Shown in pieces: positions 56,888 to 59,937 of a stretch of 64,000 nucleotides of DNA. The notes under the pieces are model-generated. The model ran no database searches. It worked only from the letters and a program-made list of their open reading frames with translations, and was not told the DNA's origin. The stretch is from Haloterrigena turkmenica DSM 5511 (GTDB lineage: Archaea; Halobacteriota; Halobacteria; Halobacteriales; Natrialbaceae): NCBI RefSeq assembly GCF_000025325.1, contig NC_013743.1, positions 1,860,001 through 1,924,000 of the forward strand. The letters run 5' to 3'. The number at the start of each line of letters is the position of its first letter. Position 1 is the first letter of the stretch. A program made the position numbers and the translations under genes.

Positions 56888-57655
56888 TCAGTTCTCGGCG
56901 GGTCGTTCGGTCGCTCGGCGGAGGATGCCGAGCAGCGTGTTCGCCTCGCGTTCGGTCAGATCCGCCCGGCCGAACACGCGCCGGAGCATCCGCATCGTCT
57001 TGTCGCGTTTCTCCTCGGGATGGTTGATCTCGGCGAGTAAGTCCGCCCACTGGTCGTAGAGGCGATCGACCGTCGGTTCGGGAGCCCGGACGCGTTCGAC
57101 GTCCGGCAGTTGAGTCTCGTCGTCGGCGAGGGTCAGCGAGCGCAGTTCGTACAGCGTGATCGTCGCGGCCTGGCCCAGGTTGAGAACGGGGTACTCGTCG
57201 CTGGCCGGGATCGAACAGATCTCGTCGATGCGGGCGAGTTCCTCGTTGGTCAGCCCGACGCGTTCGCGCCCGAAGACCAGCGCCGTCGGCGCCTCGACGG
57301 TCGGGAGTCGCTCTGCGAGGTCGGCGGGCGTCGAGAACGGGAACCGGACGTGGCTGCGGTCGTCCTCATTGGTGACCGCCGTACAGCCGATGGTGTGGTA
57401 CTCCGTGACGAGCCGGTCGAACGAGATTTCCGTCGCGTTCGGAAGCACGTCCTCGCGGGCGTGGCCCGCGAACCCGTAGGCCTCGCCGTCGGGATCGAGT
57501 TCCGGCGGATCGACCAGCAGGAGGTCCTCGAATCCGAAGTTCTTCATCGCTCGAGCGATGGTACCGACGTTGCCCGGGAACTGGGCGTCGACGACGGCGA
57601 CCGCTGGCGGGGTCCGATCGGACGGCGGCTCGGTCGCGGACGGCTCGGGAGTCAT
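56888..57655 (-). CDS. SPOUT-family tRNA 2'-O-methyltransferase, TrmJ-like
   Basis: The 255-residue protein has a SpoU-type knot domain: VAVVDAQFPGNVGTIARAMKNFGF at about 20-43 with the Asn-x-Gly-x-x-x-Arg motif, TALVFGRERVGLTNEEL (motif 2) and IPASDEYPVLNLGQAATITLYEL (motif 3). The C-terminal helical extension (about 190-250) is typical of TrmJ, which methylates position 32 of tRNAs. ATG 57655 (MTPEPSA) is chosen; a longer reading of 24 basic residues is unlikely. Its upstream side borders the origin region. Confidence 0.9.
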   Translation of the reverse strand: MTPEPSATEPPSDRTPPAVAVVDAQFPGNVGTIARAMKNFGFEDLLLVDPPELDPDGEAYGFAGHAREDVLPNATEISFDRLVTEYHTIGCTAVTNEDDRSHVRFPFSTPADLAERLPTVEAPTALVFGRERVGLTNEELARIDEICSIPASDEYPVLNLGQAATITLYELRSLTLADDETQLPDVERVRAPEPTVDRLYDQWADLLAEINHPEEKRDKTMRMLRRVFGRADLTEREANTLLGILRRATERPAEN

Positions 57656-57896
57656 CGTTCGATGGAGGATATCGACTCGAGGAGCCGTGTATCCGTTTCG
57701 GTTCCGTCCGTTCGCAGACGTCGGCATGGAAGTCTATCGCTCGAGGCGACAGACCGAGAGGGCGGCGACTCGAGAGACGTGTCGGTCATACCTCGACTAT
57801 CTGCTGCGGTGGCAAAAGGGACGCGTTCGGGAGTCTGGGAGTTCCGTTCGGAACGGTGTTAGAACCGACTCGGAAGGAGCACACTGACGGCTACCT

Positions 57897-57985
57897 TGAC
57901 CCTATTTTGTCTATCACTCTTTATCGACCTACTTTGTCCACTCTACTTTGTCTACTACTCTACTTTATCTACCCTACTTTAGTTC
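57897..57985. repeat. degenerate tandem repeats in T-rich tract (probable unwinding element)
   Basis: About five copies of a CTACTTTGTC-like unit follow one another (near 57899, 57928, 57942, 57959 and 57973), with pyrimidines on the plus strand. AT content is far above the surroundings. Position between ORB-like boxes and the trmJ gene fits a DNA unwinding element. Confidence 0.65.
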
Positions 57986-58010
57986 TAGACTAGCTAGAAC
58001 TAGATCTAGA
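57982..58010. other. CTAG cluster and palindrome within the origin
   Basis: GTTCTAG-ACTAG-CTAGAAC at 57982-58000 is an inverted repeat with 7-bp arms. Five CTAG sites start at 57985, 57990, 57994, 58000 and 58006. Another is at 58205 beside the first ORB. CTAG is scarce in haloarchaeal DNA, including elsewhere in this window. Confidence 0.7.
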
Positions 58011-58169
58011 TGCGGTCGAAGCCGATTCATCGATCTGTTTGATCCGTGTTTCTGGGAGTCAGTTGGTTCTCTGGAGTCGGTTGGATCCCTGTTTCCCGAC
58101 GTTGTGGTTTCTCTGTGCAGTTCTGGACTGATACGTCCTCGAGCGATCGGGTATCGGCCGAGTTGTTGA

Positions 58170-58200
58170 GGGGACACACACCCCCATCGCGTTTGTAACG
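58170..58200 (-). repeat. origin recognition box A
   Basis: A 31-bp element; read on the minus strand it starts CGTTACAAACGCGA and continues with a GGGGGTGTGTGT run. It is the inverted partner of box B, differing at one base. Confidence 0.8.
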
Positions 58201-58230
58201 CCGTCTAGGTGTGGGGGTCTCTTCGTGGAA

Positions 58231-58254
58231 CACACCAGTGTCGCGGATGTAAAT
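58231..58254 (-). repeat. origin recognition box D (degenerate)
   Basis: Minus strand ATTTACATCCGCGAC followed by ACTGGTGTG. It matches the core of box C (TTACATCCGCGAC) without the full G-string. Same orientation as box A. Confidence 0.55.
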
Positions 58255-58322: not shown

Positions 58323-58353
58323 CGTTACAAACGCGACGGGGGTGTGTGTCCCC
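58323..58353 (+). repeat. origin recognition box B
   Basis: A 31-bp element starting CGTTACAAACGCGACGGGGG, identical to the inverse of box A at 30 of 31 positions. Boxes A and B face each other 122 bp apart. Confidence 0.8.
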
Positions 58354-58496: not shown

Positions 58497-58524
58497 CGTT
58501 ACATCCGCGACGGGGGTGTCGGTG
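58497..58524 (+). repeat. origin recognition box C
   Basis: CGTTACATCCGCGACGGGGG followed by TGTCGGTG. It matches box B except for two core bases and the 3' end. Same orientation as box B. Confidence 0.75.
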
Positions 58525-58695: not shown

Positions 58696-59937
58696 ATGTC
58701 CGCAGACGACGATCGAGACCCGCTCTTTCGGTACGACGATCCGGTCTTCGCCGACGAGCGCCTGCTCGAGATTACGCACCTGCCCGGTCCGGATCGGATC
58801 GTCGGGCGCGACGAGCAGATGCAACGGGTTGCGGACGCCCTGAACCCGGCTATTTTCGGGAGCGAACCCAACCACCTGTTCATCTTCGGCAAGACCGGCA
58901 CCGGCAAATCACTCATTTCCCGTTCGATCACCCAGCGGGTGATTTCCGAAGCACAGCGCGACGACATCACCGTCAAGTACGCCTTCATCGACTGTGGCGA
59001 GCAAAACACCGAGGCGTCGATCGTGAAGACGATCGCTCAGATCGTCAACGAGCCCGATCGGAGCGGCATCTCCGTCCCTGATCGCGGCCTCGGCACCGGT
59101 GACTACTACAAGCGACTCTGGCAGGCGATCGATCACTGCACCGACGTCACCATCGTCATCCTAGACGAGATCGATATGCTCGAGGACGACGAAGTCCTCC
59201 GGAAACTCTCTCGCGCGGGGGAAAACCGGCGGATCTCGGACTCGAGTATCGGTATCATCGGCATCTCCAACAAGATCGACTTTCCCGACCACCTCTCGGA
59301 ACGCGTCAAATCCAGTCTCTCCCGCGACGAACTCGTCTTCTCGCCGTACGACGCCAACCAGCTGGTCGAAATCTTGGAGAAACGTCGCGACGCCTTCCAC
59401 GACGGCGTGCTCTCGGACGACGTCATTCCCCTCACGGCGGCGCTGGCGGCCCAGGAACACGGCGACGCACGCAAGGCGATCGACATCCTCCGCAACGCCG
59501 GTCGCATCGCGAAGAAACAGAACGCGACGCGGGTCACTGCCGATCACGTCCGCGACGCCAAGGAGAAGACCGAGGCCGATCGCTTCAACGAACTCATCGA
59601 GGGCTCGCCCCAGCAGGCCAAGGCGATCCTCTACTCGCTGACGCTGCTGACCGAGAACAGCACGGAAAAGGAGTTCCCGACGAAGATCATCTACAACCAG
59701 TACAAGGAGGTCGCGCGGCAACTCGACTTCGACGTGCTCTCCGAGCGGCGCGTCCAGGAGATCCTCCAGGAGCAGAACTTCCTCAACGTCATCCAGTCCG
59801 AACGCGAGGGTCGCGGACGCGGCCGCGGCGCCCACGCCAAACACCGACTGCTCGAGAACCCCTCGATCGTCAAGAAGGTACTCCTGCGGGACTCGCGGCT
59901 GGCCGTCCTCGAGGACGACGGGGGCGAGGCCACGTAG
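58696..59937 (+). CDS. orc1: origin recognition protein Orc1/Cdc6
   Basis: The 413-residue AAA+ ATPase binds ORBs and loads the MCM helicase. Walker A GKTGTGKS is at 65-72, Walker B VILDEID at 154-160, sensor-1 Asn in IGISNKIDF near 187 and the sensor-2 Arg in HGDARKAIDILRNAG. A C-terminal winged helix (about 320-405, EFPTKIIYNQYKEVARQLDFDVLSERRVQEIL) contacts DNA. ATG 58696 is chosen because upstream in-frame residues lie across ORBs and the promoter. CCTTTATTT is centred about 35 bases upstream, giving a short leader. Confidence 0.96.
   Translation: MSADDDRDPLFRYDDPVFADERLLEITHLPGPDRIVGRDEQMQRVADALNPAIFGSEPNHLFIFGKTGTGKSLISRSITQRVISEAQRDDITVKYAFIDCGEQNTEASIVKTIAQIVNEPDRSGISVPDRGLGTGDYYKRLWQAIDHCTDVTIVILDEIDMLEDDEVLRKLSRAGENRRISDSSIGIIGISNKIDFPDHLSERVKSSLSRDELVFSPYDANQLVEILEKRRDAFHDGVLSDDVIPLTAALAAQEHGDARKAIDILRNAGRIAKKQNATRVTADHVRDAKEKTEADRFNELIEGSPQQAKAILYSLTLLTENSTEKEFPTKIIYNQYKEVARQLDFDVLSERRVQEILQEQNFLNVIQSEREGRGRGRGAHAKHRLLENPSIVKKVLLRDSRLAVLEDDGGEAT

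Follow-up and report, generated by a model that had tools for sequence, protein, structure and literature searches.

Clusters of CTAG sites upstream of orc1/cdc6 genes, together with a conserved orphan CTAG methyltransferase, were described in Haloarchaea by Blow et al. 2016 (PMC4752239, Fig. 6D; the main text gives the motif as CATG, the figure legend as CTAG), and both the association and its interpretation in terms of replication control are already published there. CTAG is methylated in most haloarchaea, with a function that is still called unknown (PMC6606915), and in Natrinema pallidum NMX15-1 the modification is m4C (PMC12160562). H. volcanii without CTAG methylation has no growth defect, and the same methylase study reports a higher CTAG density around oriC2 (PMC5867850). 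SeqA binds efficiently in vitro only where GATC sites are spaced by whole 10.4-bp turns, and the GATC sites of E. coli oriC are themselves not so phased (PMC5145175).

We analysed a 64,000-nucleotide stretch of Haloterrigena turkmenica DSM 5511 DNA (the window) in which a dense CTAG cluster lies upstream of an orc1/cdc6 gene. What we add to the published association is the coincidence of the cluster with the predicted least stable DNA of the origin, the spacing rules of CTAG at oriC1, and the insufficiency of the enzyme in Haloferacaceae. In the papers covered, few of them subscription papers, we found no earlier description of the base-level anatomy, of a phased oriC1 array, or of the Haloferacaceae exception.

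Anatomy of the orc1-adjacent origin

The region is bounded on the left by a TrmJ/YjtD-family RNA methyltransferase gene (56888..57655, minus strand; TIGR00050 176 bits against a cut-off of 167; Pfam SpoU_methylase), which is divergent from orc1, and on the right by the orc1/cdc6 initiator gene itself (58696..59937, plus strand, 413 aa; TIGR02928 412 bits; Pfam Cdc6_lid and Cdc6_C). The encoded Orc is mostly 90-99% identical to its counterparts in Natrialbaceae, and 65-75% in Halorussus, Halogranum and their relatives. Between the CTAG cluster and orc1, whose start is about 690 bp from the cluster, stand an inverted ORB box with a G-string (GGGGACACACACCCCCATCGCGTTTGTAAC, 58170..58199, minus strand; identity 0.74-0.81 over 41 relatives), a second inverted ORB-like box (AACACACCAGTGTCGCGGATGTAAA, 58229..58253, minus strand; identity 0.81), and two direct ORB boxes with G-strings (GTTACAAACGCGACGGGGGTGTGTGTCCCC, 58324..58353, plus strand, identity up to 0.93; and GTTACATCCGCGACGGGGGTGTCG, 58498..58521, plus strand, identity 0.85). 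In relatives where the 58170-58199 box is found, it lies 96-350 bp (median 181) to the right of the cluster. The sequence-only reading had called this place an origin, and the G-string ORB boxes beside an orc1/cdc6 gene agree: judged by its sequence, it is an orc1/cdc6-adjacent haloarchaeal origin, intergenic and with both inverted and direct boxes. It differs from the universal haloarchaeal oriC1, which sits at the chromosome junction, with its Orc at the contig start followed by signal-peptidase-like and DNA polymerase D small-subunit-like genes (identified by eye).

The cluster consists of five CTAG sites in 25 bp (57985..58009, unstranded; starts at 57985, 57990, 57994, 58000 and 58006), and a lone sixth site lies between two ORB boxes (58205..58208, unstranded), as first proposed. 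The sixth is shared with the nearest relative (locus L016) and is not generally retained among relatives. CTAG had also been said to be rare in the window, and it is: the total is 30 against 91.5 expected from dinucleotide shuffles, an avoidance of about 3-fold, and the rate with the cluster left out is 0.39 per kb. When the AT-rich arm around the cluster (57890-58020) was shuffled locally with its dinucleotides preserved, none of 10,000 shuffles reproduced five sites in 25 bp. These shuffles already give 1.8 CTAG on average (P = 0.007 for five or more), so composition accounts for part of the site count. An inverted repeat, TAGTTCTAG-ACTAG-CTAGAACTA (57980..58002, unstranded; arms 57980-57988 and 57994-58002), is present as proposed, with 9-bp rather than 7-bp arms around a 5-bp loop, and is built of CTAG palindromes. 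A specific cruciform here was considered and rejected, since the repeat follows from CTAG being palindromic itself and its sequence is unconserved in relatives.

Abutting the cluster on the left is an arm rich in both AT and pyrimidines and built of imperfect 14-bp repeats (ACCCTACTTTATCT-like and CTACTTTGTC-like, 5.8 copies by TRF; 57899..57981, plus strand), which belongs to the predicted unwinding element. Pyrimidines make up 75% of the 40 bp on that side of the cluster, and over 46 loci the pyrimidine fraction is 0.59 in the left flank versus 0.47 in the right (P = 2e-4). In L016 the left flank of the cluster differs from the 14-bp repeat arm of the window. By predicted nearest-neighbour stability, no 60-bp segment of the 1.1 kb upstream of orc1 in the window is less stable than the one at the cluster; among the 46 loci that have a cluster, this stability minimum and the cluster coincide in 41, and in all 46 the cluster falls within the top 5% of least stable DNA. 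The methylase target sites of the window origin thus sit in its predicted unwinding element.

CTAG clusters in relatives and across the genome

Comparison of orthologous origins, where loss of the cluster in close relatives would have told against the sequence-only reading, showed that it is kept: the Natrialbaceae loci with an orthologous orc1 number 49, of which 45 have at least 3 CTAG in 60 bp and 41 have four or more, while the 3-in-60 criterion finds none in 139 control 1.5-kb segments taken from the same loci. The loci without a cluster are L041, L051, L054 and L058, two of which are metagenome assemblies. Alignment identity to the window is 0.14-0.27 across the cluster, which is background level, versus 0.7-0.9 at the ORB boxes. 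In position bins counted independently of cluster location, CTAG density peaks at 22-31 per kb between -800 and -650 versus 0-2 at most positions beyond -950, and none of seven other palindromes with one of each base, nor TTAA, ATAT or TATA, has a comparable peak at -800 to -650. Because the bases of the cluster cannot be aligned and the CTAG peak is kept, it is the density of CTAG that is conserved and not a fixed sequence.

We searched the 5.44-Mb genome for triple-CTAG patterns with at most 12 bp between sites, and found nine independent places, versus 922 matches for a reversed control motif. Five of the nine precede orc1/cdc6 paralogues at a distance of about 1 kb or less: the window cluster, C1:1211044, C4:97020, C6:70103, and one at the chromosome end (C1:3888408), which on a circular contig would be upstream of the universal orc1. 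The remaining orc1 genes, among eighteen orc1/cdc6 matches across all contigs (two being parts of one gene), have no triple-CTAG cluster. In the ranking of these clusters the window holds the tightest triple, and an equally dense cluster outside an origin occurs once: eight CTAG in about 90 bp (G000:C1:1269153-1269242), upstream of a DUF1616 gene and with no orc1 nearby, so that dense CTAG clusters are not exclusive to origins. This cluster is kept in five members of the genus, weaker in a sixth, and absent from other genera. Another non-origin cluster adjoins a TnpB-like transposon gene (by eye).

The universal oriC1 and the CTAG methyltransferase

The universal oriC1, whose initiator differs from that of the window, also carries CTAG clusters, defined as at least 4 CTAG within 100 bp in the region that precedes the universal Orc. 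In a first sample these were present in 7 of 10 Natrialbaceae, 18 of 21 members of family f3, 3 of 9 of f2 and 3 of 6 of f8; in a second sample, taken after the phasing described below had been noticed in the first, they were present in 21 of 26 Natrialbaceae and 11 of 14 f3 (28/36 and 29/35 for both samples). The oriC1 Orc1/Cdc6 (G000:C1:150-2008) has an acidic insertion of about 170 residues inside its ATPase domain relative to the window Orc.

In Natrialbaceae the oriC1 sites recur across about 20 genera at positions 0, 31, 41, 63, 83 and 132, the first five being near 0, 3, 4, 6 and 8 turns of 10.4 bp and the sixth off-phase. The CTAG columns are better conserved than the spacers (1.24 versus 0.72 bits; pairwise identity 0.71 versus 0.49). 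These arrays share ancestry, and other families were therefore tested separately with genus averaging; over periods of 8-14 bp the strongest signal fell at 10.25 bp (maximum z 4.4, P = 0.003). The AAA and TTT controls of this test are invalid, because runs that overlap violate its jitter null. The oriC1 sites have a longer, CTAGTAA-like context, and a conserved core, CTAGTGCTACGGA...TGTTTCT...TAAA, adjoins them. Beside the fifth CTAG stands a core element, about T[AG]CGG[AG]T[AT]TGGTT, 13-15 bp, TAATAAA.., which is conserved across families; it is present in Haloferacaceae too, there without CTAG. At the window-type origin 5 bp is the commonest spacing, with no sign of 10.5-bp phasing; oriC1-type phasing was accordingly rejected for the window, where sites are packed about 5 bp apart. 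That CTAG is common to both origins, despite their unlike initiators and site spacings, favours the tetranucleotide as the selected unit.

The sequence-only reading supposed an orphan CTAG methylase, and the genome has a good candidate. A PF01555 protein (G000:C1:2196488-2197597) has TSPPY preceding DPFWGTGTTT, the beta-class motif order. A plasmid search matched it to the pFZ1 methyltransferase, with 50% identity over 330 residues; the gene of that enzyme adjoins an MjaI-family endonuclease gene, and we take the enzyme to be M.MthZI. M.MthZI, from the same species as pFZ1, is a characterised m4C CTAG enzyme (PMC5867850). A search of phages for homologues of the annotated CTAG methylase gave distant matches only. 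An MjaI-type endonuclease had no match in the genome, a weak negative that agrees with the enzyme being an orphan.

The methylase gene is present in all 50 sampled relatives of the window origin, which makes its presence or absence uninformative about the window-type cluster, and, class-wide, in 343 of 391 genomes. Among the 20 of 48 enzyme-lacking genomes that were listed, all belong to family f4, which we take from its make-up to be Haloferacaceae; with none of those listed outside f4, neither cluster nor enzyme can be separated from ancestry. For Haloferacaceae the window Orc as query drew mostly paralogues of about 50% identity, and the universal oriC1 Orc was used instead. An oriC1 cluster is found in 1 of 51 enzyme carriers of this family and in 0 of 17 genomes lacking the enzyme. 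CTAG per 1.2 kb is 2.10 in carriers versus 0.94 (P = 0.018, uncorrected for ancestry), and in a Halorubrum-like genus of the family (g31) enzyme presence makes no difference to CTAG. The methylase alone is thus insufficient for a cluster, since Haloferacaceae carriers mostly lack one, and the published enzyme correlation is at least partly a family effect.

Interpretation and relation to known systems

Conservation of the cluster and presence of the methylase suggest a methylation mark that helps control the start of DNA copying. We propose, with somewhat less than even confidence, that the cluster is a selected origin component which marks the unwinding element, and that hemimethylation of the sites marked by the orphan enzyme makes the origin refractory after initiation. 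The m4C methyltransferase of the genome probably methylates the cluster in strain DSM 5511; a round of initiation would leave all cluster sites hemimethylated at once, and the origin would then be refractory until they are remethylated, either through a putative protein reading hemimethylated CTAG or through methylation-dependent initiator assembly or melting. As m4C is reported to affect duplex pairing little (PMC4477647), a reader, or an influence on how the initiator assembles, would be likelier than melting alone. An EVE-domain reader was considered and set aside, as the paper searched gave no tie to haloarchaeal origins. The earlier suggestion of a methylation-sensitive origin is therefore upheld in so far as the cluster is CTAG-specific, conserved and recurrent and the methylase is present, and is weakened by the Haloferacaceae carriers that mostly have no cluster and by the dense cluster that lies far from any orc1 gene. 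The H. volcanii deletion is probably a weak test of an origin role, because the oriC1 regions of other members of its family are mostly without a cluster. A broader proposal, which we think rather unlikely, is that an m4C code controls origins outside Haloferacaceae through CTAG arrays in the unwinding element, which at oriC1 would share one helical face at 3, 4, 6 and 8 turns, and through a putative SeqA-like reader, with loss of the arrays in Haloferacaceae explaining the H. volcanii null result.

CTAG could instead form the core motif bound by a sequence-specific origin protein, an initiator accessory factor or a nucleoid protein, that acts whatever the methylation state, which we regard as a doubtful but credible alternative. 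The fixed Natrialbaceae spacing at oriC1, the CTAGTAA-like context, the adjoining conserved core and the phasing near 10.25 bp outside Natrialbaceae would all suit such a protein, and a CTAG-binding regulator would also suit the genus-conserved cluster upstream of the DUF1616 gene. However, the window origin has neither helical phasing nor a fixed array, its packing at about 5 bp bars simultaneous occupancy of all sites by protein, and the unit common to both origins is CTAG, exactly the methylase target. It is improbable, in our judgement, that the cluster is merely easily melted DNA in which CTAG arises from unstable TA steps and a lack of coding constraint; the cluster does coincide with the least stable DNA, and the dinucleotide composition of the arm yields some CTAG unaided, but TTAA, ATAT and TATA are not comparably enriched there, and CTAG is otherwise avoided. 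Moreover, the oriC1 upstream regions of methylase-lacking Haloferacaceae are ATAT/TATA-enriched and almost free of CTAG, so an unstable element does not require this tetranucleotide.

Control of orc1 or trmJ transcription, rather than of replication itself, is a still less probable role: the cluster lies within a divergent promoter region, and CTAG is over-represented upstream of Haloferax lucertense genes (PMC11001535), but the distance to the orc1 start, the intervening ORB boxes, and the similar clusters upstream of several unrelated orc1 paralogues all argue otherwise. We consider it very improbable that the cluster is neutral and reflects a relaxed avoidance of CTAG in non-coding DNA or the activity of insertion sequences there. 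Some insertion sequences target CTAG (cited in PMC6471742), and one non-origin cluster is next to the TnpB-like gene, but neither would readily account for retention in nearly all orthologous loci and none of the controls, nor for conserved oriC1 spacing.

The window origin and the phased oriC1 array are concrete DNA on which a timing of archaeal replication by CTAG methylation can be tested, and the best published evidence to the contrary comes from the deletion in H. volcanii, whose family is mostly without the oriC1 cluster. Plasmid tools have been built on the chromosomal origins of Natrinema (PMC5350488). Natrinema pallidum DSM 3751, a different strain from the NMX15-1 in which m4C was found, has the cluster.

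The oriC1 of Haloarcula hispanica likewise has an AT-rich region with inverted G-string ORB boxes on its flanks and adjoins cdc6; in the passages covered, the mutated sites were G-rich elements and CTAG goes unmentioned (PMC3936714). E. coli oriC, with GATC, Dam and SeqA, is similar in having a cluster of palindromic methylase targets within the origin and an orphan methylase, hemimethylation being a prediction in the haloarchaeal case; it differs in motif and in using m6A where haloarchaeal CTAG carries m4C. We know of no SeqA-like reader for CTAG. The Natrialbaceae oriC1 array suits SeqA-type phasing better than E. coli oriC does, a likeness of analogy and not of membership. The system of Blow et al. 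2016 shares with ours the motif, the gene neighbourhood, the orphan methyltransferase and the interpretation as replication control; it was defined by motif density over 50 kb and correlation with the enzyme, whereas here the comparison is carried to the base-level anatomy of the origin.
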